Shown: positions 6,861 through 59,916 of the stretch, piece after piece
Position numbering within the stretch: position 1 is the first letter of the stretch
How the letters are laid out: each line of letters starts with the position of its first letter
Source: Hyperoodon ampullatus
Taxonomy: Eukaryota; Chordata; Mammalia; Artiodactyla; Ziphiidae
Assembly (NCBI GenBank): GCA_949752795.1
Contig: CATKHW010000009.1
Span: 1,550,001 to 1,614,000, forward strand
Direction: 5' to 3'
Length of the DNA stretch: 64,000 nucleotides
The notes under the pieces: model-generated
What the model was told of the DNA's origin: nothing
The model's input: the letters and a program-made list of their open reading frames with translations, nothing else
Databases searched by the model: none
Program-made: the position numbers and the translations under genes

Positions 6861-8357
6861 TTTTTTTTTTTTTTTTTTTTCCTTTTTTCTTTTTGGTTCA
6901 AGGTAGATTTTATTTATTCCTCTTTTTTTAATTTAGAGATATAAACATAGAAATAATGCATTAATATAAAGACGTCTATATGAAGGGAAAAACTTTTTTT
7001 CCATTTTATTTTATTAAATGTTATTTATTTATTTTTAATTTTTAAAAATTTATTTATTTCTTTTATACAGCAGGTTCTTATTGGATATCTATTTTATACA
7101 TATAAGTGTGCACATGTGAATCCCAGTCTCCCAATTCATCCCACCACCACCCTCACATGACGTTCCCCCCTTGGTGTCCATATGTTTGTTCTCTACATCT
7201 GTGTCTCTATCTCTGCCCTGCAAACCGGTTCATCTGTACCATTTTTCTAGGTTCCACATATATGCATTAATATACAATATTTGTTTTTCTCTTTCTGACT
7301 TACTTCACTCTGTATGACAATCTCTAGATCCATCAAGGTCTCTACAAATGACCTAATTTCATTCCTATGTATGGCTGAGTAATATTCCATTGTATGTATG
7401 TACCACATCTTTATCCATTTGTCTGTCTGTGGGCACTTAGGTTGCTTTCATTACCTGGCTATTGTAAATAGTGCTGCAATGAACATTATGGTGAATGTGT
7501 CTTTTTGATTTATGGTTTTCTCTGGGTATATGTCCAGTAGTGGGATTGATGGATTATATGGTAATTCTATTTTTAGTTTTTTTAAGGAACCTCCATACTG
7601 TTCTCCATAGAGACTGTATCGATTTACCTTCCCAACAATAGTGGAAGAAGGTTCCTTTTCTCCACAGCCTCTTCAGCATTTGTTGTTTGTAGATTTTCTG
7701 ATGATGCCCATTCTAACAGGTGTGACATGATACCTCATTGTAGTTTCGATTTCCATTTCTCTAATAATTAGTGATGTGGAGCAGGTTTTCATGTGCGTCT
7801 TGGCCATCTGTATTTCTTCTTGGAAGAAATGTCTATTTAGATATTTTTCCATTTTTATATTGGGTTGTTTGTTTTATTAATATTGAGCTGCATGAGCTGT
7901 TTATATATATTGGAGATTAAGCATTTGTCCATTGATTCGTTTGCAAATATTTTCTGCCATTCTGAGGGTTGTCTTTTCGTCTTGTTTGTAGTTTCCTTTG
8001 CTTTGCAAAAGCTTTTACGTTTTACTAGGTCCCATCTGTTTTGATTCTTTTTTTTATTTCATTAGTATAGGAGGTGGATCAAAAAAGATCTTGCTGTGAT
8101 TTACGTCAGAGTATTCTTCGTAAGTTTTCCTCTCAGAATTTTATACTGTCCAGTCTTACATTAAGGTCTCTAATCCATTTTGAATATATTTTTATGTATG
8201 GTGTTGGGGAGTGTTCTAATTTCATTCTTTTACATGTAGCTGTCCATATTTCCCAGCACCACTGATTGAAGAGACTCTCATTTCTCCATTGTAAAGTCTT
8301 GCGTCCTTTGTAATAGATTAGTGGAGCATAGGTGTGTAGGTTTATCCCTGGGCTTTC
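6861..8357 (-). mobile_element. L1 copy 1, 5'-truncated, minus strand
   Basis: Twenty T residues at 6861-6880 mark the complement of the poly(A) tail. An AT-rich 3' end follows, then the L1 3' UTR block CAGCAGGTTCTTATTGG near 7069 and the ORF2 C-terminal region in reverse (GGCTGAGTAATATTCCATTG near 7374, then CTGTTCTCCATAG and AGTAGTGGGATTGATGGAT-type landmarks). L1 identity continues to GGGCTTTC at 8350-8357 and stops. The ORF2 part is full of stops and shifts. The 3' UTR differs from that of copy 2, so the two are different L1 subfamilies. Target-site duplication not identified. Confidence 0.9.
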
Positions 8358-9885
8358 TTTTTTTTTTTCCTTTTACACGTTTATTGGAGTATAATTGCTT
8401 TACAATGGAGTGTTAGTTTCTGCTGTCTAACAAAGTGAATCAGCTATACATATACAAATATCACCAGATCCCATCCCTCTTGCATCTCCCTCCCACACTC
8501 CATATCCCACCCCTTTAGGTGGTCACAAAGCACCGAGCTCATCTCCCTGTTCTATGTGGCTGCTTCCCAGTAGCTATCGGTATTACATTTGGTAATGTAT
8601 TTATGTCCATGCCACTCTCTCACTTCTTCCCATCTTACCCATCCCCCTTCTGTTGTCCTCAAATCCTTTCTCTATGTCTGTGTCCTTAATCCTGTCCTGC
8701 CACTAGGTTCTTCAAAACTTTTTTTTCTTCGTTAGATTCCATATACCTCTGTTAACATACAGTATTTGTTTTTCCCTTTCTGACTTACTTCACTGTGTAG
8801 GACAGATTCTAAGTCGATCCACCTCAGTACAAATAACTCAGTTTTGCTTCTTTTTATGGCTGAGTAATATTCCATTGTATATATATGCCAGATCTTCTTT
8901 ATCCATTCATCTGTCGATGGACACTTAGGTTGCTTCCATGTCCTGGCTATTGTAAATAGAGCTGAAATGAACATTTTTGTACATAAATCTTTTTGAATTA
9001 TGGTTTTCGCAAGGCAAATGCCCAGTAGTTGGATTGTTGTGCTGTATGGTGCTTCTATTGTTAGTTATTTAAAGGAACCTCCTTACTGTTCTCCCTAGTG
9101 GCCATATCAATTTACATTCCCACCCACAGTGCAAGTGTGTTCCCTTTTCTCCAATAAAGGCCTCTCCAGCATTTATTGTTTTGTAGATTTTTTTGATGAT
9201 TGCCACTCTGACTGCTGTGAGGTGATACCTCACAGTAGTTTTGATTTGCATTTCTCTAATGATTAGTGATGTTCAGCATCCTTTCATGTGTTTCTTGTCA
9301 ATCTGTATATCTTCTTTGGAGAAATGTCTATTTAGGTCTTCTGCACGTTTTTGAATTGGGTTGTTTGTTTTTGTGATATTGAGCTACATGAGGTGCTTGT
9401 AAAGTTTGGAGATTAAACCTTTGTCAATTGCTTCATTTGAAAATATTTTCTCCCATTCTGAGTGTTGTTTTTGCATCTTGTTTATGTTTTCCTGTACTGT
9501 CTAAAAGCTTTTAAGTTTCATTAGGTCCCATTTGTTGATTTCTGTTTTTATTTCCATTTCTCTAGGAGGTGGGTCAAAAAGGATCTTGCTGTGATTTATG
9601 TCATAGAGTGTTCTGCCTATGGTTTGCTCTAAGTGTTTTATAGTGTCTGGTCTTATATTTAGATCTCTAATCAATTTAGACTTTATTTTTGTGTATGGTG
9701 TTATGGAGTGTCCTAATTTCATTCTTTTATGTGTAGGGGTCCAGTTTTCCCATCACCAATTACGGAAGAGTCTGTCTTTTCTCCATTGTATATCCTTAGC
9801 TCCTTTGTCATAGATGAGATAGCCATAGGTATGTAGGTTTATCTCTGGGCTTTCTGTCCTGTTCCATTGATCTGTGTTTATGCCA
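8358..9885 (-). mobile_element. L1 copy 2, 5'-truncated, minus strand
   Basis: A T-run at 8358-8368 (complement of the tail) is followed by the TTATTGGAGTATAATTGC 3' UTR block typical of cetacean and related L1s, with GTGGTCACAAAGCACCGAGC and CCATGCCACTCTCTCACTTC in order. The ORF2 region then runs in reverse to about 9885, where the sequence passes into satellite. The element is about 1.5 kb, a usual length for a 5'-truncated L1. Its left end abuts the truncation point of copy 1. Confidence 0.9.
8732..9722 (-). pseudogene. L1 ORF2 C-terminal remnant in copy 2
   Basis: Minus-strand frames match the C-terminal part of L1 ORF2p, the endonuclease/reverse transcriptase of the retrotransposon. 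About 9501-9722 gives PYTKIKSKLIRDLN and INKWDLMKLKSF; 9069-9251 gives [20 protein letters not shown]; 8732-8974 gives WIKKIWHIYTMEYYSAIK, the well-conserved C-terminal box. These blocks are in the right order but in different frames and separated by stops. The catalytic reverse transcriptase domain lies upstream of the truncation and is absent. Confidence 0.9.
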
Positions 9886-10701
9886 ATCTACATACACTTG
9901 ATTCCATTATGGAGACATATAAATACATAGGTTTCAAGATTATTACCTGTCAGATATATTCTTCTTCAGTGAATAGGGTGTTTTGTGTCCAGTTCAGGGA
10001 GAAAGGAGTAGGTCTTGTGTATTACATATTTGGTATATGGTATGGTATCTGTGCTAATTTCAAACTCTGCTTTTACACATGACCCCACGTCAACTTTCCC
10101 CTTAAGGAGGCATAAGTGTGTTTTCTAAATGTGTAACTCTGTTCTCTTTTGAAATTCAGTTCATGTGTAGCCATGTTTACATTCCCTCTATAAGTGATAT
10201 ATTACAATAAGTTTATTTTTCTTTGTGGCTCATTTCACTTAGCATCATCGTACCTAAAGCCACTCATTATGCTGCTATTGGCCTTATGACATTGATTTTA
10301 TGTCTGAGTGACATTCCATTGTATACAAGTACCACAACATCTTTATCCATTTTTTTTTCCTTTCCTGGGATATTTAAAGTGTACCGAAGTCGAGGTTCTT
10401 GTAAACAGAGCAGCCCTAAATTTTGGGCTGGCTGTGTGTTGTGGATTTTTAGTTTTCCCTAAATACACGCCCATGCGTGGAAGTGTGCTATGCTCTGTAG
10501 CTCTGTTTTAGAAAACAACATACAGTTTTCCAGAGAGGCTGTTGGCAATTTACATCCTGTCCATCGGCATAACCAGGCTCCCTTTTCTCCATGGCCTGTC
10601 CTGCATTTGTGGTTTTTACACTATTTGCAGATGGCCCTTTTGACCGGTGGAAAGTGACACTTCTATGTAGTATGGTTTTGCAATGCCTGATGGCTTGCTT
10701 G

Positions 10702-10769
10702 GACAAAAAGGGCATATGCATTTTTTTCCCGAATATATTCAAGAAAATACACATACTCCCTTTTCAGCC
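10702..10769. repeat. Monomer M4 palindrome, partly degraded
   Basis: Centred at 10735/10736 on GAATATATTC. Inner arms pair imperfectly (TTTTTTTCCC against AAGAAAATAC) and the outer arm reads GGAC instead of GGCC, matching the general divergence of this monomer. Confidence 0.7.
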
Positions 10770-12450
10770 AAGGGCAACATTGTCGCAGTTCTGTCGCTTT
10801 TCATGTGCTTTAAATACGACTCCAATCTACCTCTTGAAATCTGTTTCCTTCAATTCTGCCTTGCTTTCAAATCCTCTTCACTTCCTTACCTCAATATATT
10901 TCTGGATGATAGTTGTCCTTTATAACTCTGCAAGTTTGTGAATTGCTGTGCCCCTGATTTCCATTTTTCAACTCATTTATTTGTGAGCTGACTGCAATAC
11001 CGCAGGATGGCTTTAGGCCCTAGTCTGGTTCCGGGGTTGCAGGCTGAGCCTTTGTTTAATTCTTCTTCCTGATGGGAAACTAGAGTGACATGTGCCCATC
11101 CAAACACCTACAGCTAATCTCTCATTTGTTTCCCCTCTTCCTGTTCATCCTCTGCACAATTTGCAAACTGTGCATAACAGGAGGGTAAAGGCACTGACAC
11201 TCCAAGTGGGGAGATTTTCAGTATTACAGATGGAATCACTAAACCGAGCACGAGGAAAGGAAAAATGAGGTACATTTTAGAAAACTTTCCCGATTACAGA
11301 GTGTACCATTCAACGGGTTTCCCATGCATGTTTTAACTGTAGGAAGATTCCCTTAAACCTGGAGAGTTGGGGCCACTAGAATGGGTAGCACACAGTATTG
11401 CTCTAAGTGGTGTTCTTTTGCTCACACAACCTCAGCAATCTTGTCAGCCCCAGGTGTCCAGTCTTATGTCTCCTCCAGCTGTGGGTGTAAAGGTGGTCAA
11501 TCCATGTTTCATCACAGGCCCTGAAAGTAATTTTTAAGACTTTCTCTCTGTTTTGCTGTTTTTGCATTTTGCTTTTGAAATTTATTTTTATAAGGGTGTT
11601 TAGCTGAATTTCAGTGCTGTGCATTCCGTTATACACACGCATGATTCCTTTATGGAGACATAAGAATACATATGTTTTAGAATTATTACAAGTCAGATAT
11701 ATTCTTCTGCAATGAATAGGGGTTGTTGAGTCCAGTTCATTGTGCCGGGAGTAGGTGCTGTCTATTACATACTTGGTTTATGGAACGGTGTCTGTGCTAA
11801 TTTAGGACTCTGGATTTATGTATCACCCCACCTCTCCTTCCCCCTTAAGCAGGCATAAGAGTGTTTTCTAAATGTGAGACTCTGTTCTCTTTCCTAACTC
11901 AGTTCATGTGTAGCCATGTTTACAGGACCTTCATAAGTGATATCTTATGATAAGTCTAATGTTCTCTGTGACTAATTTCACTTAGAATCATCATACCTGA
12001 ATCCACTCATTTTGCTGCTACTGGCCTTATGACATTGATTTCATTGCTGAAGGATATTACATCGTAAGTAAATACCACAATTTCTTGAACCATTTTTGTC
12101 TTTCCTGGGATATTTCAGGTGTACCCTAGTTGAGGTTCTTCTAAGCAGTGCAGCCCTAAATTTTGGCGTGGCTCTGTCTTATTGATTTTCAGTTTTGCCA
12201 AGGTATATTCCCTAGACTGGAAGTGCCGTTGGCTCTGTAGCTCTGTTGATTATTTGTTTTAGGGAACACAATGCACTCCTCCAGAGAGGAGGTTGGCAAT
12301 TTACATCCCGCCCATCAGCATAACTAGGCTCCCTCTTCTCCAGGGCCTGTCTTGCCTTTCTGGTTTTTACACATTTTGCAGAAGTCCCTTTTGAACGGTG
12401 GGAAGAGATACTTCTTTGTAGTGCAGATTTTCATTGCCCGCTTGCTTGAT

Positions 12451-12520
12451 TGGCCAAAAAGGGCGTATGCGTTTTCTCCTGAATATATTCAGGAGAAAAC
12501 AAAAACGCCGTTTTTGGCCA
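12451..12520. repeat. Monomer M5 palindrome
   Basis: Centred at 12485/12486. TGGCCAAAAA pairs with TTTTTGGCCA at the outer ends and GTTTTCTCCTGAAT with its complement at the core; the right arm has AAAAACGCCG where most monomers have a CGCATACGCCC-like sequence. Confidence 0.9.
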
Positions 12521-14185
12521 CGTGCATCTCTCTCGAAATTGTGCCCCTCTTCCAGTGCTTTAAAGGCGATTCCAATGTACTTCTTGAAATCTGTTTCCTG
12601 CTATACTGGCTTGCTTTCAAGTCCGCCTAGTTGCCTTCCCTCAAGAAATTTTTGGACGATAGTTGTCCTTTATTACTCTGCCGGTTTGTGAATTCCTGTG
12701 CCCCTGAGCTCCATTTTTCAACTCGTTTTCGTGAGCTGTACTCAAGTCCAAAATTTTGGTTCAGGACCTATACTGGTCCCCGGCGGGTGGCTGAAACTTT
12801 GATTAATTCTTCTTCCTGCCGGGAAATTAGAGTGACATGTAACCGTCCAAATGCCTAACAGCTACTCTCTCATTGGTTCTCCCTCCTCCCTTTCATCTTC
12901 TGCCAAATTGGCAACCTGTGCGACCCAGGAGGTTAAAGGGGCTGTCTCTCCAAGTTGGGAGATTGATAGTAAAGCAGTTGGATAGTCAAACCGAGGCACC
13001 AGGAGAGGGACTATTAGTTGACTTTTAGAAACCTTTCATATTCACAGTGTTTCCATTCTCTAGGTTTCCCGTACATGTTATCGCTGTAGTAATATTCCCT
13101 TCAACCTGGAAAGTTGGGACCCTTGGATTGTGTGCCACGCATTATTGCTTTAAATGGTCTGCATTTGCTCACCGAATCTCAACAATACTCTCAGTCCCAA
13201 GTGTCCAGAATTATGCCACATCCAGCTATCATTGTAGATAGGGTCATTCCAGGTTTCATCAGAGCCCCTGAAGGAATTGTAGAGAACTTCCTCTTTTTTT
13301 TTTGTTTTTGAGGTTCCTTTTTATATTTGCTTTGAGCTGCTTCTCACTGCCATGTTTATGCCAGTCTAGACACACTTGATTCCCTTACGGAGACATATTA
13401 ATACATAGATTTTATGATTCTTACTAGTCAGATATATTCCTCTGCGGGAAATATGGGGTTTTGAGTCCCTTTCACTGAGGAAAGTGTAGGTCTTTTCTAT
13501 TCCGTATTTGTTTTTCGGAACGGTACCTGTACTAATATCAAACTCTGGTTTTATGCATCACCCCACCTCTCCTTCCCACTTAAGCAGGCATAAGAGTGTT
13601 TTCTAAGTGTGAGACTCTGTTCTCTTTCCTAACTCAGTTCATGTGTAGCCATGTTTACAGGACCTTCATAAGTGATATTTTATGATAAGTTTATTTTTCT
13701 CTGTGACTTATTTCACTTAGAAACATCGTACCTGAAGCCACTCATTTTGCTGCTACTGGCCATATTACATTGATTTCATGACTGTGGGATATTCCTTCGT
13801 ACGTATATAACACAATTTCTTGAACTATTTTTGTCTTTCCTGGGATATTTAAGGTGTACCCAAGTTGAGGTTCTTGTAAGCAGTTCAGCAATAAATTTTG
13901 TGGTGGCACTGTCTTACTGATTTTCAGTTTTCCCAAGGTGTATTCCCTATACTGGAAGTGCCCTTGGATCTGTAGCTCTGTTGTTTACTTGTTTTAGGGA
14001 ACACAATGAACTCCTCCAGAGAGGCAGTTGGCAATTTACATCCTGCCCTTCAGCATTACTAGGCTCCCTGTTCTCCAGTGCCTGTCTTGCCTTTCTGGGT
14101 TTTACACATTTGCGGATGTCCCTTTTGACCGGCGGGCAGTGGTACTTCTTTTTAGTGCAGATTTGCATTGCCCGCTTTCTTGCTT

Positions 14186-14253
14186 GGCCAAAATGGGCGT
14201 ATGCGTTTTCTGCTGAATATATTCAGGAGAAAACACATACGCCCTTTTTAACA
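14186..14253. repeat. Monomer M6 palindrome, right outer arm lost
   Basis: Centred at 14219/14220. GGGCGTATG pairs with CATACGCCC and the core is intact except one change (TGCTGAAT). The right outer end reads TTTTTAACA instead of TTTTTGGCC. Confidence 0.85.
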
Positions 14254-15919
14254 AAGTGCATCATTGTCGAACTTGTGCCACTCTTCCTGTGCTTTAAAGA
14301 TGATTCCAATGTACCTCTTGAAATCTGTTTACTGCTCTTCTGGCCCAAATTCAAGTCCTCCTGGTTGCCTTCCCTCAACAGATTTTTGGACGATAGTTGT
14401 CCTTTATTACTCTGCCAGTTTGTGAATTGCTGTGCCCCTGAGCTCCATTTTTCAACTAGTTGTTTGTGAGATGACCACAAGTACAAAATTTTGGTTCAGG
14501 ACCTATACTGGTTCCCGGCGAATTCCTCAGACTTTAAATAATTCTTTTTCCTGCCGGGAAATTAGAGTGGCATGTGCCCGTCCAAATGTCTAACAGCTAA
14601 TCTCTCATTGGTTCTCCATCTTTCCTTTCATCCTCTGCCAATTGGCAACATGTGAGTACCAGGAGGTTAAAGGAGCTGTCTCTCCAAGTTGGGAGATTGA
14701 TAGGAAAGCAGTTGGAAAGTCAAACCGGAGCACCAGGAGAGGGATTATTAGTTGAGTTTTAGAAACCTTTCGTATTCACAGTGTGTCCTTTCTCTATGTT
14801 TTCCGTACATGTTATAGCTGTAGTAATATTCCCTTCAACCTGGAGAGTTGGGACCCGTGGAATGTGTCCCACGCATTATTGCTATAAATGGTCTGCATTT
14901 GCTCACCTAATCTCACCAATCCTCTCAGTCCCAAGTGTCCAGACTTATGCCACGTCCAGCTGTCGTAGTAGATAAGGTCCTTCCGGGTTTCATCAGAGAC
15001 CCTGAAGGAATTGTAAAGGATTTCCCTGATTTATTGTTTTGTTTGTGAAATTCATTTTTAGAATGGGTTTGAGCTGATTCTCACTTCCATGTTTATGCGA
15101 GTCTAGACACACTTGATTCCCTTACGGAGACATCAATACATAGGTTTTAAGATTTTTACTAGTCAGATATTTTCTTCTGCGGGAAATATGGGATTTTGAG
15201 TCCCTTTCACTTAGGAACTTGTAGGTCTTTGCTACTCCGTAGTTGGTTTTTGGAACGGTACATGTACTAATATCAAACTCTGGTTTTATGCATCACCCCA
15301 CCTCTCCTTCCCCCTTAATCCGGCATAAGAGTTTTTTCTCAATGTAAGTGTCTGTTGTCTTTCCTAACTCACTTCATGTGTAGCCATGTTTACAGGACCT
15401 TCATAAGTGATATCTTATGATAAGTTTCTTTTTCTCTGTGACTTATTTCACTTAGAATCATCGTACCTGAATCCACTCATTCTGCTGCTACTGGCCTTAT
15501 GACATTGATTCCATGGCTGAGGGATATTCGATCATACATAAATACCACAATTTCTTAAACCATTTTTGTCTTTCCTGGGATATTTCAGGTGTACCAAGTT
15601 GAGGTTCTTGTAAGAAGTGCAGCCCTAAATTTTGGGGTGGCTCTGTCTTATTGACTTTCAGTTTTCCCAAGGTATATTCCATACACTGGAAGTTCCCTTG
15701 GCTCTGTAGCTCTGTTGTTTACTTGTTTTACGAACACAATGCACTCCTCCAGAGAGGCAGTTGGCAATTTACATCCCGCCCATCAGCATAACTAGGCTCC
15801 CTTTTCTCCAGGGCCTGTGTTGCCTTTCTAGATTTTACACATTTTGCGGGTGCCTCTTTTGTCCGGTGGGAAGTGATACTGCTTTGTAGTGCAGATTTGC
15901 ATTGCCAGCTTGCTTGCTT

Positions 15920-15987
15920 GGCCAAAAATGGGGTATGCGTTTTCTCCTGAATATATTCAGGAGAAAACGCATACCCCCTTATTGGCC
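15920..15987. repeat. Monomer M7 palindrome with changed stem
   Basis: Centred at 15953/15954, 34-bp arms, two mismatches. The stem reads GGGGTATGCG on the left and CGCATACCCC on the right. Relative to M9 the C:G pair in this part has become G:C on both arms. Confidence 0.95.
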
Positions 15988-17655
15988 CATTGCATCATTG
16001 TCAAAGTTGTGCCCCTCTTCCTGTGCTTTAAAGGCAATTCCAATGTACCTCTTGAAATCTGTTTCCTGCTATTCTGGCTCGCTTTCAAGTCCACCTCGTT
16101 GCCTTCCCTCAACAGATTTTTGGACGATAGTTTTCCTTTATTACTCTGCCCGTTTGTGAATTGCTGTGCCCCTGAGCTCCATTTTTAAATTCGTTTTTTG
16201 TGAGCTGACCGCAAGTCCAAAATTTTGGTTCAGGACCCATACTGGTTCCCGGCGGGTGTCTGAGACTTTGATTAATTCTTCTCCCTGTCGGGAAATTAGA
16301 GTGACATGTGCCCGTCCAAATGCCTAACAGCTACTCTCTCATTGGTTCTCCATCTTACGTTTCATCCTCTGCCAATTGGCAACATGTGAGAACCAGGAGG
16401 TTAAAGGGGCTGTCTCTCCAAGTTTGGAGATTGATAGTAAAGAAGTTGGAAATTCAAAGTGGAGCACCAGGAGAGGGATAATAGGTTGAGATTTAAAAAC
16501 CTTTTGTATTTACAGTGTGTCCATTCTCTAGGTTTCCCGTACATGTTATAGCTGTAGTAGTATTCCCTTCAATCTTGAGTGTTGGGACATTTGGAATGTG
16601 TGCCTCGCATTATTGCTTTAAATGGTCTGCATTTGCTCACCGAATCTCACCAATCCTCTCAGTCCCAAGTGTCCAGACTTATGCCATATCCAGCTGTCAT
16701 TGTAGATAGGGTCATTATAGATTTCATCAGAGCCCCTGAAGGAATTGTAAAGAATATCCATGTTTTTTTGTTTTGTTTTTGAAATTCCTTTTTATAGTGT
16801 GTTTGAGCTGATTCTCACTGCCATGTTTCTGCCAGTCTAGACACACTTGATTCCCTGATGGAGACATATCAATACATAGGTTTTAAGATTCTTACTAGTC
16901 AAATATATTCCTCTGCGAGAAATATGGGGTTTGCGTCCTTTTCACTGAGGAAGGTGTAGGGATTGACTCTTCCGTAGTTGGTTTTTTGAACGGTACCTGT
17001 ACTACTATCAAACTCTTTTTTTATGCATCACGCCACCTCTCCTTCCCCCTTAAGCAGGCATAAGAGTGTTTTCTAAATGTGAGACTCTGTTGTCTTTCCT
17101 AACTCAGTTCATGTGTAGCCATGTTTACAGGACCTTCATAAGTGATATCTTATGATAAGTTTCTTTTTCTCTGTGACTTATTTCACTTAGAATCATCGTA
17201 CCTGAATCCACTCATTCTGCTGCTACTGGCCTTATGACATTGATTTCATAGCTGAGGGATATTCCATCATACGTAAATACCACAATTTCTTAAACCATTT
17301 TTGTCTTTCCTGGGATATTTCAGGTGTACCCAAGTTGAGGTTCTTGTAAGCAGTGCAGCCCTAAATGTTGGGGTGGCTCTGTCTTATTGACTTTCAGTTT
17401 TCCCAAGGTATATTCCGTACACTGGAAGTGCCCTTGGCTCTGTAGCTCTGTTGTTTACTTGTTTTACGAACACAATGCACTCCACCAGAGAGGCAGTTGG
17501 CAATTTACATCCCGCCCATCAGCATAACTCGGCTCCCTTTTCTCAAGGGCCTGTGTTGCCTTTCTTGTTTTTACACATTTTGCGGATGTCTCTTTTGTCC
17601 GGTGGGAAGTGATACTGCTTTGTAGTGCAGATTTGCATTGCCAGCTTGCTTGCTC

Positions 17656-17723
17656 GGCCAAAAATGGGGTATGCGTTTTCTCCTGAGTATATTCAGGAGA
17701 AAACGCATACCCCCTTATTGGCC
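17656..17723. repeat. Monomer M8 palindrome
   Basis: Centred at 17689/17690, same GGGGTATGCG / CGCATACCCC stem as M7. The central loop pair is changed to GAGTATATTC on one side only. Confidence 0.95.
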
Positions 17724-19391
17724 CATTGCATCATTGTCGAAGTTGTGCCCCTCTTCCTGTTCTTTAAAGGCAATTGCAATGTACCTCTTGAAATCTGTTT
17801 CCTGCTATTCTGGCTCGCTTTCAAGTCCACCTCGTTGCCTTCCCTCAACAGATTTTTGGATGATAGTTTTCATTTATTACTCTGCCCGTTTGTGAATTGC
17901 TGTGCCCCTGAGCTCCATTTTTAAATTCGTTTTTTGTGAGCTGACCGCAAGTCCAAAATTTTGGTTCAGGACCTATACTGGTTCCCGGTGGGTGGCTGAG
18001 ACTTTGATTAATTCTTCTTCCTGCCAGGGAATTAGAGTGACATGTGTCCGTCCAAATGCCTAACATATACTCTCTCATTAGTTCTCCATCTTACCTTTCC
18101 TCCTCTGCCAATTGGCAACATGTGAGAACCAGGAGGTTAAAGGGGCTGTCTCTCCAAGTTTGGAGATTGATAGTAAAGAAGTTGGAAATTCAAAGCGGAG
18201 CAACAGGAGAGGGATAATAGGTTGAGTTTTAAAAACCTTTTGTATTTACAGTGTGTCCATTCTCTAGGTTTCCCGTACATGTTATAGTGGTAATAGTATT
18301 CCCTTCAATCTTGAGAGTTGGGACCTTTGGAATGTGTGCCTCACATTATTGCTTTAAATGGACTGCATTTGCTAACCGAATCTCACCAATCCTCTCAGTC
18401 CCAAGTGTCCAGCCTTATGCCACATCCAGCTGTCGTTGTAGATAATGTCATTCCGGGTTTCTTCAGAGACCCTGAGGAGTTGTAAAGGATTTCTCTGATT
18501 TTTTGTTTTGTTTGTGAAATTCCTTTTTAGAATGGGTTTGAGCTGATTCTCACTGCCATGTTTATGCGAGTCTAGACACACTTGATTCCCTTACAGAGAC
18601 ATATCAATACATAGGTTTTAAGATTTTTACTAGTCAGATATTTTCCTCTGCTGGAAGTATGGGGTTTTGAGTCCCTTTCACTTAGGAAGCTGTAGGTCCT
18701 TTCTACTCCATAGTTGGTTTTTGGAACGGTACATGTACTAATATCAAACCCTGGTTTTATGCATCACCCCACCTCTCCTTCCCCCTTAAGCAGGCATAAG
18801 AGTTTTTTCTCAATGTGAGAGTCTGCTCTCTTTCCTAACTCACTTCATGTGTAGCCATGTTTACAGGACGTTCATAAGTGATATCTTATGATAAGTTTCT
18901 TTTTCTCTGTGACTTATTTCACTTAGAATCATCCTACCTGAATCCACTCATTTTGCTGCTACTGGCCTTATGACATTGATTTCATGGATGAGGGATATTC
19001 CATCATACATATATACCACAATTTCTTGAACCATTTTAGTCTTTCCTGGGATATTTCAGGTGTACCCACGTTGAGGTTCTTGTAAGCAGTGCAGCCCTAA
19101 ATTTTGGGTGGCTCTGTCTTATTGACTTTCAGTTTTCCCATGGTGTATTTCCTAGACTGGAAGTGCCCTTGGCTCTGTAGCTCTGTTGTTTACTTGGTTT
19201 AGGGATCACAATGCACTCCTCCAGAGAGGCAGTTGGCAATTTACATCCCGCCCATCAGCATAACTAGGCTCCCATTTCTCCAGGGCCTGTTTTGCCTTTC
19301 TAGTTTTTACACATTTTGCGGATGTCTCTTTTGTCCGATGGGAAGTGATACTGCTTTGTAGTGCAGATTTGCATTGCCTGCTTGCTTGCTC
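17656..19391 (+). repeat. Representative satellite monomer (M8), internal anatomy
   Basis: Three parts can be seen in this 1,736-bp unit. First, a palindrome (17656-17723). Second, about 0.9 kb with no homology I recognise, including GAAATCTGTTTCCTGC, GAACCAGGAGGTTAAAGG and TCAGTCCCAAGTGTCCAG. Third, from about 18635 to the next palindrome, a degenerate minus-strand L1 3' end in the correct L1 order: ACATGTACTAATATCAAACC (compare L1 TGTTAATCCCAAACT), ATCACCCCACCTCTCCTTCC, AGTGATATCTTATG, TTATTTCACTTAGAATCATC, GATGAGGGATATTCCATC (L1 GGCTGAGTAATATTCCAT), and GTGCAGATTTGCATTGCC (L1 TTTTGATTTGCATTTC). The L1 match fades at the palindrome. Confidence 0.8.
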
Positions 19392-19459
19392 GGCCAAAAT
19401 GGGCGTATGCGTTTTCTCCTGAATATATTCAGGAGAAAACGCATACGCCCTTTTTGGCC
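19392..19459. repeat. Monomer M9 palindrome, near perfect
   Basis: Centred between 19425 and 19426 with 34-bp arms and no spacer. Every pair from 19392/19459 inward matches except T19400 against T19451. Stem GGGCGTATGCG / CGCATACGCCC. This is the cleanest example in the window. Confidence 0.97.
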
Positions 19460-21130
19460 CATTGCATCATTGTCGAAGTTGTGCACCTCTTCCTGTGCTT
19501 TAAAGGCAATTCCAATGTACCTCTTGAAATCTGTTTCCTGCTATTCTGGCTCCCTTTCAAGTCCACCTCGTTGCCTTCCCTCAACAGAATTTTGGACGAT
19601 AGTTTTCCTTTATTACTCTGCCCGTTTGTGAATTGCTGTGCCCCTGAGCTCCATTTTTAAATTCGTTTTTTGTGAGCTGACCACAAGTCCAAAATTTTGG
19701 TTCAGGACCTATAGTGGTTCCCGACGGGAGGCTGAGACTTTGATTAATTCTTCTTCCTTCCGGGAAATTAGAGTGACATGTGACTGTCCAAATGTCTAAC
19801 AGCTACTCTCTCATTGGTTCTCCATCTTTCCTTTCAACCTCTGCCAATTGGCAACATGTGAGAACGAGGAGGTTAAAGGGGCTGTCTCTCCAAGTTGGGA
19901 GATTGATAGTAAAGAAGTTGGAAATTCAAACCGGAGCACCAGAAGAGTAACAATTAGTTGAGTTTTAAAAACCTTTTGTATTCACAGTGTGTCCATTCCC
20001 TAGGTTTCCCGTTCATGTTATATCTGTAGTAGTATGCCCTTCAGTCTGGAGAGTGGGGACCTTTGGAATGTGTGCCACGCATTATTGCTTTAAATGGTCT
20101 GCATTTGCTCACCGAATCTCACCAATCCTCTCAGTCCCAAGTGTCCAGAATTATGCCATATCCAGCTGTCATTGTAGATAGGGTCATTATAGATTTCATC
20201 AGAGCCCCTGTAGGAATTGTAAAGAATTTCCCTGTGTTTTTGTTTTGTTTTTGAAATTCCTTTTTATAGTGGGTTTGAGCTGATTATCACTGCCATATTT
20301 CTGCCAGTGTAGACACACTTGAATCCCTGATGGAGACATATCAATATATAGGTTTTAAGATTCTTACTAGTCAGATATATTCCTCTGCGGGAAATATGGG
20401 GTTTTGCATCCCTTTCACTGAGGAAGGTGTAGGGATTGACCCTTCTGTAGTTGGTTTTTGGAACGGTACCTGTACTAATATCAAACTCTGGTTTTATGCA
20501 TCACACCACCTCTCCTTTCCCCTTAAGCAGGCATAAGTGTGTTTTCTCAATGTGAGACTCTGTTGTCTTTCCTAACTCAGTTCATGTGTAGCCATGTTTA
20601 CAGGACCTTCATAAGTGATATCTTATGATAAGTTTCTTTTTCTCTGTGACTTATTTCACTTAGAAACATCGTACCTGAATCCACTCATTTTGCTGCTACT
20701 GGCCTTATGACATTGATTTCATGGCTGAGGGATATTCCATCGTACGTAAGTACCACAATTTCTTGAACCATTTTTGTCTTTCCTGGGATATTTCAGGTTT
20801 ACCCAAGTTGAGGTTCTTGTAAGCAGCGCAGCCTTAAATTTTGAGGTGGCTCTGTCTTATTGATTTTCAGTTTTCCCAAGGTATATTCCTTAGACTGGAA
20901 GTGCCCGTGCCTCTGTAGCTCTGTTGTTTACTTGTTTTAGGGAACACAGTGCACTCCTCCAGAGAGGGAGCTGGCAATTTACATTCCCCTCATCAGCATA
21001 ACTAGGCTCCCTCTTCTCCAGGGCCTGTCTTGCCTTTCTGGTTTTGTACATATTTTGCAGATATCCCTTTTGTCTGGTGGGAAGTGATACTGCTTTGTAG
21101 TGCAGATTTGCTTTGCCCGCTTGCTTGCTT

Positions 21131-21168
21131 GGCCAAAAAGGGCGTATGCGTTTTCTCCTGAATATATG
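21131..21168. repeat. Monomer M10 half palindrome (right arm deleted)
   Basis: The left arm GGCCAAAAAGGGCGTATGCG and core up to GAATATAT are present; the sequence then jumps to GCCAAGTGCATCA. Compared with its neighbours 28 bp are missing, exactly matching the shortened 1,708-bp spacing to the next palindrome. Confidence 0.9.
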
Positions 21169-22839
21169 CCAAGTGCATCATTGTCGAAGTTGTGCCCCTC
21201 TTCCTGTGCTTTAAAGGCGATTCCAATGTACCTCTTGAAGTCTGTTTCCTGCTATTCTGGCTCACTGTCAAGTCTGCCTCGTTGCCTTCCCTCAACAGAT
21301 TTTTGGGCGATAGTTTTCCTTTATTACTCTGCCCGTTTGTGAATTGCTGTGCCCCTGAGCTCCATTTTTCAACTCGTTTTTTGTGAGCTGACCGCAAGTC
21401 CAAAATTTTGGTTCAGGACCTCTACTGGTTCCCAGCAGGTGGCTGAGACTTTGATTAATTCTTCTTCCTGCCGGGAAATTAGAGTGACATGTGCCCGTCC
21501 AAATGTCTCTCAGCTACTGTCTCATTGGTTCTCCATCTTACCTTTCATCCTCTGCCAATTGGCAACATGTGAGAACCAGGAGGTTAAAGGGGCTGTCTCT
21601 CCAAGTTGGGAGATTGATAGTAAAGCAGTTGGAAATTCAAACCAGAGCACCAGGAGAGGGACTGTTAGTTGAGTTTTAAAAACCTTTTGTATTCACAGTG
21701 TGTCCATTCTCTAGGTTTCCCGTACATGTTATAGCTGTAGTAATATTCCCTTCAACCTGGAGAGTTGGGACCCTTGGAATGTGTCCCACGCATTATTGCT
21801 TTAAATGGTCTGCATTTGCTCACCGAATCTCACCAATCCTCTCAGTCCCAAGTGTCCGGCTTTATGCCACATCCAGCTGTCATTGTAGATAGGGTCATTC
21901 CAGCTTTCATCAGAGCCCGTTAATGAATTGTATAGAATTTCCTTTTTTTTTTGTTTTCTTTTTGAAATTCCATTTTATAGTGGGTTTGAGCTGATTCTCA
22001 CTGCCATGATTCTGCTAGTGTAGACACAGTTGATTCCCTGATGGAGACATATCAATACATAGGTTTTAAGATTCTTACTAGTCAGATATATTCCTCTGTG
22101 GGAAATATGGGGTTTTGAGACCCTTTCACTGAGGAAGGTGTAGGGCTAGTCTCTTCCGTAGTTGATTTTTGTAACGGTACCTGTACTAATATCAAACTCT
22201 GGTTTTATGCATCACCCCACCTCTCCTTCCCCCTTAAGCAGGCATAAGAGTGTTTTCTAAATGTGAGACTCTGTTCTCTTTCCTAACTCAGTTCATGTGT
22301 AGCCATGTTTACAGGACCTTCATAAGTGATATCTTATGATAAGTTTCTATTTCTCTGTGACTTCTTTCACTTAGAGTCATCGTACATGAATCCACTCCTT
22401 TTTCTACTACTGGCCTTATGATATTGATTTCATGGATGAGGGATATTCCATCGTACGTAATAAAACAATTTCTTGAACCATTTTTGTCTTTCCTGGGATA
22501 TTTAAGTTGTACCCAATTTGAGGTTCTTGAAAGCAGTGCAGCCCTAAATTTGGGGTGGCTCTGTCTTATTGATTTTCAGTTTTCCCAAGGTATATTCCCT
22601 AGACTGGATGTGCACTTGGCTCTCTAGCTCTGTTGGTTAATTGTTTTAGGGAACACAATGCACTCCTCCAGAGATGCAGTTGGCAATTTACATCGGGCCC
22701 ATCAGCATAACTAGGCTCCCAGTTCTAAACGGCCTGTTTTGCCTTTCTAGGTTTTACACATTTTGTGGATGTCTCTTTTTTCTGGTGGGAAATGGTACTG
22801 CTTTGTAGTGCAGATTTGCATTGCCCGCTTGCATGCTAT

Positions 22840-22905
22840 GCCAAAAAGGGGGTATGCGTTTTCTCCTGAGTATATTCAGGAGAAAACGCATACGCCCTTT
22901 TTGGC
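22840..22905. repeat. Monomer M11 palindrome
   Basis: Centred at 22872/22873. Left stem AGGGGGTATGCG, right stem CGCATACGCCCT, so one stem pair is mismatched (G against G). The outer left GG of GGCC is changed. Confidence 0.9.
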
Positions 22906-24574
22906 CCATTGCATCATTGTCGAAGTTGTGCCCCTCTTCCTGTGCTTTAAAGGCAATTCCAATGTACCTCTTGAAATCTGATTCATGCTATTCTGGCTCG
23001 CTTTCAAGTCCACCCCGTTGCCTTCCCTCAACCGATTTTTGGATGATTGTTGTCCGTTGTTACTCTGCCAGTTTGTGAATTGCGGTGCCCCTGAGCTCCA
23101 TTTTTCAACTCGTTTTTGTGAGCTGACCGCAAGTCCAAAATTTTGGTTCGGGTCCTATACTGATTCCCGGCGGGTGACTGAGACTTGGGTTAATTCTTCT
23201 TCCTGCCAGGAAATTAGAGTGACATGTGCCCGTCCAAATGCCTAACATCTACTCTCTCATTGATTCTCCCTCTTCCCTTTCATCCTCTGCCAAATTGGCA
23301 ACCTGTGCGAACCAGGAGGTTAAAGGGGCTGTCTCTCCATGTTGGGAGATTGATAGTAAAGCAGTTGGAAAGTGAAACCGGAGCACCAAGAGAGGGATTA
23401 TTCGTTGAGATTTAGAAATATTTCGTATTCACAGTGTGTCCATTCTCTAGGTTTCCTGTACATGTTATAACTGTAGGAGTATTCCCTTCAACATGGAGAG
23501 TTGGGACCCGTGGAATGTGTGCCACGCATTATTGCTTTAAATGGTCTGCATTTGCTCACCGAATCTCACCAATCCTCTCAGTCCCAAGTGTCCAGCCTTA
23601 TGCCATATCCAGCTGTCTTTGTACATAGGGTCATTCCGGGGTTCATCACAGATCCTGAAGGAATTGTAAAGGATTTCCCTGATTTTTTGTTTTGTTTGTG
23701 AAATTCCTTTTTAGAATGGGTTTGAGCTGATTCTCACTGCCATGTTCATGTGAGTCTAGACACACTTGATTCCCTTACAGAGACATATCAATACATAGGT
23801 TTTAAGATTTTTACTAGTCAGATATTTTCCTCTGCGGGAAATATGGGGTTTCGAGTTACTTTCACTTAGGAAGTTTTAGGTCTTTTCTACTCCGTAGTTG
23901 GTTTTTGGAACGGTACATGTACTAATATCAAACTCTGGTTTTATGCATCACCCCACCTCTCCTTCCCCCTTAAGCAGGCATAAGAGTTTTTTCTCAATGT
24001 GAGAGTCTGTTCTCTTTCCTAACTCACTTCATGTGAGCCATGTTTACAGGATCTTCATAAGTGATATCTTAGGATAAGTTTCTTTTTCTCTCTGACTTAT
24101 TTCACTTAGAATCATCGTACCTGAATCCACTCATTTTGCTGCTACAGGCCTTATGATATTGATTTCATGGCTGAGGGATATTCCATCATACGTAAATACC
24201 ACAATTTCTTGAACCATTTTTGTCTTTCCTGGGATATTTCAGGTGTACCCAAGTTGAGGTTCTTGTAAGCAGTGTAGCTCTAAATGGTGGGGTGACTCTG
24301 TATTATTCATTTTCAGTTTTCCAAGGTATATTCCTTAGACTGGAATTGCCCTTGGCTCTTTAGCTCTGTTGTTTACTTGTTGTAGGGAACACAATGCACT
24401 CCTCCAGAGAGGCAGTTGGCAATTTACATCCTGCCCATCAGCATAACTAGGCTCCCAGTTCTCCAGTGCCTGTCTTGCCTTTCTGGTGTTTACACATTTT
24501 GCGGATGTCCTTTTTGACCGGTGGGAAGTGATACTTCTTTGTAGTGCAGATTTGCATTTCCCGCTTCCTTGCTT

Positions 24575-24642
24575 GGCCCAAAAGGTCGTATGCGTTTTCT
24601 CCTGAATATATTCAGGAAAAAATGCATACATCCTTTTTGGCC
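24575..24642. repeat. Monomer M12 palindrome
   Basis: Centred at 24608/24609. Core intact on the left; right arm has AGGAAAAAATGCATACATCC, giving several mismatches. Outer GGCC ends still pair. Confidence 0.9.
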
Positions 24643-25807
24643 AAGTGCATCATTGTCGAAGTTGTGCCCCTCTTCCTGTGCTTTAAATCAATTCCAATGT
24701 ACCTCTTGAAATCTGATTCCTGCTATTCTGGCTATCTTTCAAGTCTGCCACTTTGCCTTCTCTCAACAGATTTTTGGACGATTGTTGTCCTTTATTACTC
24801 TGCCATTTTGTGAATTGCTGTGCCCTGAGCTCCATTATTCAACTCGCTTTTGTGAGCTGACGTCAAGTCCAAAATTTAGGTTCAGGACCTATATTGGTTC
24901 CCGTTGGGTGGCTGAGACTTTGGTTAATTCTTCTTCCTGCCGGGAAATTAGAGTGACATGTGCCCGTCCAAATGCCTAACAGCTACTCTCTCATTGGTTC
25001 TCCCTCTTCCCTTTCACCTTCTGCCAATTTGGCAACCTCTGCGAACCAGGAGTTTAAAGCGGCTGTCTCTCCAAGTTGGGAGATTGATAGTAAAGCAGTT
25101 GGAAACTCAATCCGGAGCACCAGGATAGGGACTATTAGTTGAGTTTTAGAATCTTTTCATATTCACAGTGTGTGCATTCTCTACGTTTCCCATACATGTT
25201 ATAACTGTAGTGATATTCCCTTTTACTTGGCGAGTTGGGACCCATGGAATTGGTGGCATTCATTATTGCTTTAAACGGTCTGCATTTTCTCGTTCAATCT
25301 CACCAATCCTCTCAGTCAAAAGTGTCCAGCCTTATGTCTCATCCAGCTGTCGTTTTAGATAGGGTCATTCCAGGTTTCTTCAGAACACCTGAAGGAATTG
25401 TATTAGGATTTCCCAGTTTTTTTCTTTTGTTTTTGAAAATCATTTATATAATGAGGTTGAGCTGATTTTCACTGATGTGTTTATGCTGGTCTAGACACAC
25501 TTGATTCCCTTACGGATACATATCAATACATAGGTATTAAGATTCTTACTAGTCATATATATTCCTCTTCGGGAATAGGGCTGTTGAGTCCCGTTCACTG
25601 AGGAAGGAGTAGCTCTTGTCTATTCTGTATTTGGATTATGCAACGGTACCTGTGCTTATATCAAACTCTGGTTTTGTGCATCTCCCCACCTCTCCTTTCC
25701 CCTTAAGCAGGCATAAGTATGATTTCTAAATGTGAGACTCTGTTCTCTTTCCTAATTCAGTTCATGTGTAGCCATGTTTACATTTCCTTCATAAGTGATA
25801 TCTTATG

Positions 25808-53845: not shown

Positions 53846-54643
53846 GGAGACTTATCAATACATATGTTTTAAGATTCTTACTAGTCAGATATATTCCTCT
53901 GTGGGAAATATGGCGTTTTGAGTCCATTTCACTTAGGAAAGTGTAGGTATTTTCTATTCCGTAGTTGGTTTTTGGTACGGTACCTGTACTAATATCAAAC
54001 TCTGGTTTTATGCATCACCCTACCTCTCCTTCCCCGTTAAGCAGGCATAAGCGTGTTTTCTAAATGTTAGACTCTGTTCTCTTTCCTAACTCAGTTCATG
54101 TGTAGCCATGTTTACAGGAGCTTCATAAGTGATATGTTATGATAACTTTCTTTTTCTCTGTAACTTATTTCACTTAGAATCATCGTAACTGAATCCACTC
54201 ATTTTGAAACTACTCACCTTATGACATTGATTTCATGGCTGACTGATATTCCATCGTGCATAAGTAACACAATTTTTTGAACCATTTTTGTCTTTCCTGG
54301 GTTATTTAAGGTGTACCCAAGTTGAGGTTCTTGTTAGCAGTGCAGCCATAAATTTTGCAGTGGCTCTGTCTTATTGATTTTCAGTTTTCCCAAGGTATAC
54401 TCCCTAGACTGGTAGTGCACTTGGCTCTGTAGCTCTGTTGTTTCCTTATTTTAGGGAACACAGTGCACTCCTCCTGAGAGGCAGTTGGCAATTTACATCC
54501 TGTCCATCAGCATAACTAGGCTCCCTGTTCTCCATGGCCTATCTTGCCTTTCTGGATTTTACACCTTTTGCGGATGTCCCATTTGACTGGTGGGAAGTGA
54601 TACTTCATTGTAGTGCAGATTTGCATTGCCCGCTTGCTTGCTT

Positions 54644-54711
54644 GGCCAAAAAGAACGTATGTGTTTTCTCCTGAATATATTCAGGAGAAAACACCTACGG
54701 CATTTCTGGCC
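54644..54711. repeat. Monomer M13 palindrome, variant stem
   Basis: Centred at 54677/54678. Left GGCCAAAAAGAACGTATGTG, right CACCTACGGCATTTCTGGCC; core TTTTCTCCTGAAT intact. GTG/CAC replaces the GCG/CGC pair set of M9 on both arms. Confidence 0.93.
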
Positions 54712-56380
54712 AAGTGCATCATTGTTGAAGTTGTTCCCCTCTTCCTGTGCTTTAAAGGCGATTCCAATATACCTCTTGAAATCTGTTTCCTGCTATTCTG
54801 GCTCGCTTTCAAGTCCGCCTCGTTGCCTTCCCTCAACAGATTTTTGGAGGATTGTTGTCCTTTATTACTCTGCCAGTGTGTGCATTGTTGTGCCCCTGAG
54901 CACCATTTTTCAACTCGTTTTTTGTGAGCTGACCGCAAGTCCAAAATTTTGGTTCAGGATCTATACTGGTTCCCGGCAGGTGGCTGAGACTTTTGTTAAT
55001 ACTTCTTCCTGCCGGGAAATTAGAGTGACATGTGCCCATCCAAATGCCTAACAGCTACTCTCTCATTGGTTCTCCCTCTTCCCTTTCATCCTCTGCCAAA
55101 TTGGCAACCTGTGCGAATAAGGAGGTTAAAGGGGCTGTCTTACAAGTTGGGAGATTGACAGTAAAGCAGTTGGAAAGTCAAACCGGAGCAGCAGGAGAGG
55201 GACTATTAGTTGAGTTTTAGAAACCTTTCATATTCACAGTGTGTCCATTCTCTATGTTTCCCGTACATTTATAGCTGTAGTAATATTCCCTTCAACCTGG
55301 AGAGTTGGGACCCTTGGAATGTGTGCCACACATTATAGCTTGAAATGGTCTGCATTTTCTCACCGAATCTCATCAATCCTCTCAGTCCCAAGTGTCCAGA
55401 CTTATGCCACATCCAGCTGTCATTGTAGATAGGGTCATTCCAGGTTTCATCAGAGCCCCTGAAAGAATTGTAAAGAATTTCTCTGTTTTATTGTTTTGTT
55501 TTTGAAATTCCTTTTTATAGTGGGTTTGAGCTGATTCTCACTGCCATGTTTATGGCAGTCAAGACACACTTCATTCCCTTACGGAGACATATCAATACAT
55601 AGGTTTTAAGTTTCTTACTAGTTAGATATATACCTCTGCGGGAAATATGGGGTTTTGAGTCCCTTTCACTGAGGAAAGTGTAGGTCTTTTCTATTCCATA
55701 GTTGGTTTTTGGAACGGTACATGTACTGATATCAAACTCTGGTTTTATGCATCACCCCACCTCTCCTTCCCCCTTAAGCAGGCATAAGATTGTTTTCTAA
55801 ATGTGAGACTCTGTTCTCTTTCCTAACTCAGTTCATGTGTAGCCATGTTTACAGGACCTTCATAAGTGATATCTTATGATAAGTTTCTTTTTCTCTGTGA
55901 CTTATTTCACTTAGAATCATCGTACCTGAATCCACTCATTTTGAAACTACTGGCCTTATGTCATTGATTTCATGGCTGACTGATATTCCATCGTACGTAA
56001 GTAACACAATTTCTTGAACCATTTTTGTCTTTCCTGGGATATTTAAGGTGTACCCAAGTTGAGGTTCTTGTTAGCAGTGCAGCCATAAATTTTGGGGTGG
56101 CTCTGTCTTATTGATTTTCAGTTTTCCCAAGGTATACTCCCTAGACTGGTAGTGCACTTGGCTCTGTAGCTCTGTTGTTTCCTTGTTTTAGGGAACACAG
56201 TGCACTCCTCCAGAGAGGCAGTTGGCAATTTACATCTTGTCCATCAGCATAACGAGGCTCCCTGTTCTCCATGGCCTATCTTGACTTTCTGGATTTTACA
56301 CCTTTTGCGGATGTCCCATTTGACTGGTGGGAAGTGATACTTCATTGTAGTTCAGATTTGCATTGCCCGCTTGCTTGCTT

Positions 56381-56448
56381 GGCCAAAAAGCGCATATGTG
56401 TTTTCTCCTGAATATATTCAGGAGAAAACGCATAAGCCCTTTTTGGCC
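56381..56448. repeat. Monomer M14 palindrome
   Basis: Centred at 56414/56415. Left arm carries the T variant (TATGTG) while the right arm keeps CGCATA, so this pair is T against G. Outer GGCCAAAAA / TTTTTGGCC pair fully. Confidence 0.93.
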
Positions 56449-58118: not shown

Positions 58119-58186
58119 GGCCAAAAAGAACGTATGTGTTTTCTCCTGAATATATTCAGGAGAAAACACATACGGCATTTCTGGCC
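58119..58186. repeat. Monomer M15 palindrome, variant stem
   Basis: Centred at 58152/58153. CGTATGTG on the left pairs with CACATACG on the right, so the C:G of M9 is T:A here on both arms. Outer part has mismatches at AAGAA against GGCAT. Confidence 0.95.
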
Positions 58187-59846: not shown

Positions 59847-59916
59847 GGCCAAAAAGGACGTATGCGTTTTTTCCTGAATTGATTCAGGAGTAAGCACACA
59901 TACGGCATTGCTGGCC
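59847..59916. repeat. Monomer M16 palindrome with 2-bp insertion
   Basis: Centred near 59880; core changed to GAATTGATTC. The right arm reads AGGAGTAAGCACACATACGG, two bases longer than in the other monomers. Confidence 0.85.

Follow-up and report, generated by a model that had tools for sequence, protein, structure and literature searches.

The palindrome carried by a tandem satellite with a monomer of ~1.74 kb (1740 bp) most probably (with a probability of roughly 0.8) derives from the insertion of a MADE1-like, mariner-type MITE into LINE-1-derived sequence, and was copied together with the satellite. This origin is favored by sequence comparison because of the identity between the palindrome and a MITE dispersed in the same genome (56 of 74 columns against the MITE consensus), the empty homologous site in LINE-1, the TA register of the insertion and the insert of exactly 80 bp in an old satellite copy. 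Under this scenario, an 80-bp palindromic MITE would have hopped into a TA dinucleotide of LINE-1 ORF2-derived sequence, the sequence holding the MITE would have become the progenitor of the 1.74-kb satellite, and tandem amplification would have copied the palindrome along, about a hundred thousand times. The persistence of the palindrome would be mainly passive, a palindrome as short as 74 bp probably being tolerated and homogenisation of the array presumably spreading one well-paired version; this is the simplest reading of the persistence, and one that appears reasonably likely.

The satellite array and its palindromes

The window is the whole 64-kb stretch of DNA analysed here (C30:1550001-1614000), in a genome of 2.83 Gb and 755 contigs. 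The focal inverted repeat at 19392-19459 has zero spacer and arms of 34 bp with a single mismatch, just as described in the first-pass annotation. The same annotation reported a palindrome of about 68 bp at the same phase in 16 monomers, a description in which the lack of a spacer and the common phase hold, whereas the length and the number do not. The palindrome consensus, obtained from other contigs, is longer than the focal copy and is perfect, with 74 bp, arms of 37 bp, 37 of 37 positions paired and zero spacer; extraction by both flanks yields 15 copies at one phase in the window (15 were in fact listed in the annotation), among which 10 are well paired, 4 decayed and 1 halved. The claims that the copy near 21 kb is halved and that a spacer-free palindrome is maintained along the array are both supported by these copies. 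The copies, together with the core of the focal one, are as follows (all without strand):

99-172: decayed old palindrome (flank extraction)
1849-1920: decayed old palindrome; outer ends GTTGG/CCAAC, the same as in the dispersed MITE
10698-10772: decayed old palindrome (flank extraction)
12449-12522: palindrome copy (scan and flank extraction)
14183-14256: palindrome copy (scan and flank extraction)
15917-15990: palindrome copy with an identical C-to-G change in either arm (scan and flank extraction)
17653-17726: palindrome copy with an identical C-to-G change in either arm (scan and flank extraction)
19389-19462: focal 74-bp palindrome frame, of which 19392-19459 is the part that still pairs, with 34-bp arms and one mismatch
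19412-19439: inner 28-bp core TTTTCTCCTGAATATATTCAGGAGAAAA of the focal monomer, with the lowest substitution count among the 28-bp windows of the monomer
21128-21173: halved palindrome of 46 bp with a 28-bp deletion (flank extraction)
22836-22909: palindrome copy (scan and flank extraction)
24572-24645: palindrome copy (scan and flank extraction)
54641-54714: palindrome copy (scan and flank extraction)
56378-56451: palindrome copy (scan and flank extraction)
58116-58189: palindrome copy (scan and flank extraction)
59844-59919: decayed palindrome of 76 bp (flank extraction)

The scan of the 64 kb, which allowed spacers of 0-10, detected zero-spacer palindromes with arms of 30-37 bp, 1-5 mismatches and scores of 21-31 at 10 satellite phases (12451, 14190, 15920, 17656, 19392, 22840, 24572, 54641, 56378 and 58116); the only remaining palindromes, at 9211 and 27851, are far weaker (scores 10-12). 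Genome-wide, the inner 28 bp is found exactly at 99,452 places, compared to 0 for a reversed-pattern control, which by simple arithmetic (99,452 cores x 1.74 kb) implies ~170 Mb of satellite, or ~6% of the assembly.

The window also contains a 25-bp minisatellite (TCACAATGCTCCATGACCCTTGTCA) at 25808-53837, a stretch of 28 kb, and at 61084-64000. Its two left junctions with the satellite, 25807 and 61083, fall at an identical phase of the monomer (query position 1648), which suggests a composite repeat. The contig starts L012, L017 and L019 (C3, C8 and C10) consist of degenerate repeats whose words resemble GGCCTTAGTTAGGG or telomere sequence.

Relationship to a dispersed MITE

Dispersed palindromes in the genome have the same ends as the satellite palindrome (TTGGCCAAAAAG...CTTTTTGGCCAA). 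A search pattern modelled on the end of a bovine mariner was matched 49 times on the forward and 50 times on the reverse strand, with hits on every one of the contigs C1-C21 except C14 (20 contigs). A second pattern yielded 226 forward and 217 reverse matches, those listed being the first hundred, on C1-C3; the reversed control gave 0 matches in each case. Many places match on both strands, and, the outer bases being fixed in the patterns, the copies found are those with intact ends. Some hundreds of copies of the dispersed MITE are present in the same genome as the satellite.

Two of the dispersed copies, L035 and L036, each 80 bp long, give full-length matches to the Rfam mir-548 model (all 84 positions; E 2e-16 and 2e-13), although these matches do not reach the curated cut-off. 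According to the accessible part of PMC1784062, members of mir-548 derive from MADE1, a palindromic MITE that is 80 bp long and belongs to a human mariner. The satellite palindrome (L009) had no match to the mir-548 model at E up to 1, and the Rfam scan of the window gave no mir-548 row, its one match being at chance level. Judging from its sequence, the satellite palindrome is probably a relative of a MADE1-like element, and it is not filed here as a MADE1 copy.

BLASTN aligned the satellite palindrome with L035 at 75% identity over 76 bp (E 9e-6) and with L036 at 74% over 87 bp. The MITE consensus used for comparison was derived from 19 dispersed copies, namely every plus-strand 76-base match on C1 and C2 among the matches listed. 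The structure of the satellite palindrome is of the MITE type as well, with two 37-bp arms, zero spacer and almost no interior; its length is 80 bp in the old copy at 1845-1924, and the modern satellite form is 2 bp longer.

The probable insertion site in LINE-1-derived sequence

Positions 207-825 of the monomer consensus align with LINE-1-like segments at 64% identity and less (BLASTN). The read-through frames of the monomer consensus had no match at a useful level in Pfam or PDB; the LINE-1 content is instead demonstrated by DNA comparison and by an open reading frame of L032 that spans the stretch with the site and corresponds to LINE-1 ORF2p (E 4e-39 to solved structures). The insertion site maps to approximately residue 1099 of human ORF2p, with LINE-1 antisense to the satellite as read here. 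The pertinent features of the window, in which the coordinates of the old copy, the empty TA and the TG were counted by hand from alignments and printed sequence, are:

1845-1924, no strand: old copy, exactly 80 bp MITE-derived, between the degraded target dinucleotides TG (1843-1844) and TC (1925-1926), LINE-1-like on both sides
7145-7761, minus strand: LINE-1-like segment, 64% identical to monomer consensus 207-825, with the empty target TA next to it at 7765-7766 (CTCTAATAATTAG) and no palindrome
8623-9324, minus strand: second LINE-1-like segment with an empty site, TG in place of TA at about 9260

The site reads GATTTGCATTTCTCTAA-TA-ATTAGTGATGTTGAGC in LINE-1 without the palindrome (longer context ...GATTTGCATTTCTCTAATAATTAGTGATGTTGAGC...) and GATTTCCAGTGCCCACC-TG-[80 bp]-TC-ATTGGTGATGTTCAGC in the old copy near 1849. 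The target dinucleotides are TA/TA at L035, TA/TG at L036, TG/TC in the old satellite copy and TA in the empty LINE-1. The exact 33-mer of the empty site has 11,265 matches in the genome; the hundred listed lie dispersed over C1, in either orientation. The homologous LINE-1 site without the palindrome is also found in L013, L014 and L032 (C4, C5 and C550). These stretches are LINE-1-rich and self-repeating, at offsets of 5.08, 4.51 and 2.73 kb, respectively, with about two copies each.

In an insertion test, the MITE with a duplicated dinucleotide was placed at each of 55 points in LINE-1 and then aligned with satellite copies. The TA described above was the best of the 55 points for the old copy (score of 429, the next being 417) and also for the modern consensus, by the small margin of 430 to 427 over another TA 3 bp away; it ranked 3rd for the copy at 10698 and 6th of 55 for the copy at 99. 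In the old copy, a five-copy LINE-1 profile continues across the site once it is emptied (76.7 bits vs 64.2 for the left side alone); emptying the site adds only 2.8 bits in the modern consensus and 2.6 bits in the 10698 copy. Taken alone, the right-hand LINE-1 match has only a weak E of 0.055 in the old copy, amounts to a few bases in the 10698 copy, falls at a different place in the copy at 99 and does not appear in the modern consensus even with E values of 10 allowed. The first-pass annotation had L1 homology stop at the palindrome. A border exactly at that point is rejected because the similarity crosses the site in the best-kept copy, the one near 1849, where it fades ~35 bp beyond the right end of the palindrome; the impression of a border is explained by the right-hand remnant having nearly faded in the modern monomers.

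Some of the observations weigh against the MITE origin. The TA in question is not the best insertion point in two of the four copies tested (10698 and 99), and the target duplication is degraded in the aligned satellite copies. The weak or missing right-hand LINE-1 match, the few bits gained by emptying the site in the modern and 10698 copies and the lack of a mir-548 match for the satellite palindrome itself count on the same side. Furthermore, the consensus arms pair perfectly and yet about nine places in each arm depart from the MITE, a combination that simple decay after insertion does not give. The competing view, in which the palindrome arose de novo inside the satellite and chance or convergence lies behind its resemblance to the MITE, could draw on the moderate similarity of the inner arms taken alone, given that 19 of 20,000 palindromic shuffles equal the MITE-satellite score when the outer 13 bp are held and the inner 24 shuffled, and on Rfam mir-3926, another hairpin with GGCCAAAAAG ends that weakly matches both palindromes too. 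Against this view, the score was reached by none of 20,000 palindromic shuffles of the same composition, the BLASTN match of the satellite palindrome to the dispersed MITE is independent of that score, and the old copy shows both the exact length of 80 bp and the TA register, so that a de novo origin appears highly improbable.

Conservation of the palindrome and of its core

In the conservation test set beforehand, the whole 68-74 bp fared no better than the rest of the monomer and the inner 28 bp stood above it in terms of substitutions. Across 58 full monomers, the identity of the whole 74 bp is 0.965, compared to 0.960 overall, which is only the 77th percentile, and conservation of the palindrome as a whole is rejected on this ground; the deleted bases in the 74 bp exceed those of 98% of windows. 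The assertion of the first-pass annotation that the core is almost unchanged is confirmed: with 14 substitutions against a median of 61 in 56 monomers, the core ranks 1 among 1713 windows (and 1 in 88% of locus bootstraps), and it is exact in 65 of 80 independent palindrome copies. After correction for CpG and trinucleotide context, the core shows 0.29 of the expected substitutions, rank 3 behind two windows that overlap it, whereas the outer arms are unremarkable, at 0.82 and 1.01 of the expected count, so the low substitution of the core is not a property of the whole palindrome. When the monomers of the window are left aside (n=45), the core has 1 substitution in 1260 bases compared to a median of 35 per window, and the outer arms have 33 and 35 in 1035 bases each. 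With deleted bases counted, the rank of the core falls to 142.

The 56-monomer sample, drawn from 13 loci (contig starts and positions chosen arbitrarily) and the window, shows more variation than the whole genome; 11 of the 26 sampled stretches are without satellite. One sampled stretch, L021, lies inside the window, and its monomers and palindromes were removed before counting (58 to 56 monomers, 84 to 80 palindromes).

A non-palindromic stretch located 414 bp upstream of the palindrome (-414; ~18976-19003 in the focal monomer; consensus TTGATTTCATGGCTGAGGGATATTCCAT) shows nearly core-like conservation, with 95,871 exact copies genome-wide. The genome-wide lead of the core over this control 28-mer and over a flanking 28-mer that includes a CpG (83,296 exact copies) is small, 4% and 19%, respectively. 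Among the 45 monomers from outside the window, the fraction with an exact flanking 28-mer is 0.40, vs 0.93 for the core; the ratio of the genome-wide counts is 0.84.

Persistence, folding and turnover

Several processes might act on the palindrome in addition to, or in place of, passive copying. In the 19 dispersed MITE copies, the arms mismatch at 1-11 of 38 positions, and the old satellite palindromes are imperfect too, whereas all 37 pairs of the modern consensus are intact and, relative to the MITE, the same one-base insertion and the same substitutions appear in both arms. Template switching at the hairpin that keeps the arms identical and that would have turned an imperfect MITE into a perfect palindrome is compatible with the MITE origin; nevertheless, we consider it doubtful. 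Among the arm changes in 70 copies, 125 affect one arm and 6 are identical in both arms, with 9 sites changed differently between the arms. In permutations, 2.0 identical two-arm changes are expected and 6 or more were seen in 58 of 5000 runs; once identical palindromes are collapsed (45 distinct), 221 of 5000 runs reach 6. The excess of symmetric changes is weak; arm-to-arm copying may have occurred, although it is not dominant now. The ratio of 125 to 6 implies that correction, if any, is slow, and the symmetric differences from the MITE may have pre-existed in the inserted copy. A 301-bp query around the decayed 1849 palindrome (1760-2060), with which further diverged old copies were sought, retrieved only copies of that same repeat (40 scored matches, its own included, among 1230 candidates), all 99-100% identical and present on many contigs, e.g., C21-C30, C76, C605, C618 and C738. 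This region is part of a recently spread macro-repeat that holds old decayed monomers, and the near identity of its copies indicates that units with a broken palindrome spread as well.

The very few substitutions in the core are not predicted by a purely passive reading of persistence. Selection on a palindrome of the same MITE origin, with the inner 28 bp now serving as a putative cruciform, as the source of a hairpin RNA through which small RNAs would silence the satellite or as a site for a dimeric protein, is possible in view of the substitution pattern (the lowest count of all 28-bp windows, with ordinary outer arms) and of the predicted 35-pair RNA hairpin. MADE1 hairpins have been turned into miRNAs, as reported in the available text of PMC1784062. 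As single-stranded DNA, the palindrome has a predicted folding energy of -45 kcal/mol (z -16.7), which is consistent with the earlier suggestion that it could extrude a cruciform. However, the non-palindromic -414 stretch comes close to the core in exact copies (95,871 vs 99,452) and the flanking CpG 28-mer still has 83,296, the core loses its first rank once deleted bases are counted, and the repeat with the decayed palindrome has spread; on balance, selection on the centre seems unlikely. Less likely still is the fuller version in which a captured palindrome would have been rectified to perfection and its 28-bp centre selected in ~100,000 copies, so that a Dicer-ready hairpin in each transcript (or a cruciform in each monomer) would act as a built-in silencing or packaging signal. 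The notion that the palindrome drives array turnover through breakage, inversion or unequal exchange, a role already disfavored, is most improbable. Of 74 deletions, 6 begin inside the palindrome, a slight excess over the 3.1 expected, and among 80 sampled copies two have lost the central 8 bp and another is halved. Against these figures stand the rarity of the centre-deleted form in the genome (59 exact occurrences vs 99,452 intact cores), the recurrence in the same genome of palindrome-free LINE-1-rich repeats (L013, L014 and L032), the wide spread of the decayed-palindrome repeat, and the genome-wide count of zero, with exact 15-base flanks required, for head-to-head junctions in which the palindrome has the left flank on both sides. 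An inversion hot spot at the palindrome is rejected on the latter result.

These findings also lend no support to what the first-pass annotation had assumed about stability and turnover. It described perfect spacer-free palindromes as normally unstable and treated the survival of this one as unexpected; the form with a deleted centre for which we searched is rare, and some hundreds of near-palindromes of ~80 bp that belong to the same element family survive at dispersed sites. The role in array turnover that it suggested gains no support from the zero count of head-to-head junctions or from the spread, at 99-100% identity, of the macro-repeat with the decayed palindrome.

Implications and comparison with known systems

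With passive copying of an inserted MITE as the preferred reading, a structural oddity of a highly abundant whale-type satellite would become a datable event, namely the insertion of a MITE into LINE-1-derived sequence before amplification. Knowing which cetacean lineages have the palindrome, and whether the hippopotamus does, would put the steps in the origin of the satellite in order. In addition, an ordinary outer palindrome around a nearly unchanged centre, in ~100,000 natural replicates, provides for a test of tolerated vs used satellite palindromes.

Given the monomer length and the LINE-1 content, the present satellite is probably the common cetacean satellite. Compared by description rather than by sequence, the two share a ~1.7-kb tandem monomer that is LINE-1-derived, and the MITE within the LINE-1-derived part is an extra component here. 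Similarity between the common cetacean satellite and the 3'-terminal region of mammalian L1 has been reported (Kapitonov et al., 1998, as cited in the accessible part of PMC9659126). No mention of a MITE or a mariner in the cetacean satellite was found in the available portions of a mainly non-subscription literature that includes PMC9659126 (cetacean terms), PMC12628747, PMC5751776, PMC10919930 and PMC10815390.

MADE1, the MITE of human Hsmar1, has the same length of 80 bp and the same two near-complete inverted repeats as the element described here, for which a TA target like that of MADE1 is probable, and the likeness of the dispersed copies L035 and L036 to it consists in the full-length match to the mir-548 model, below the curated cut-off; the mariner sequence differs, however (ends TTGGGTTGGCCAAAAAG), and one copy here has joined a satellite monomer. 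Dyad symmetries of under 10 bp have been proposed as non-B-DNA cues at centromeres (PMC9070824, accessible part), where, as here, an inverted repeat occurs once per satellite monomer; in contrast to these short dyads, the present case involves one perfect palindrome of 74 bp with a transposon origin, the comparison being one of structure. In Messor ants, according to the available text of PMC9659126 and PMC2581405, the mariner Mboumar lies inside satellite DNA, so that a mariner-type element resides in satellite monomers as it appears to do here; in the present satellite, the host is a mammal, the element is combined with LINE-1, and it is retained as a short perfect palindrome.
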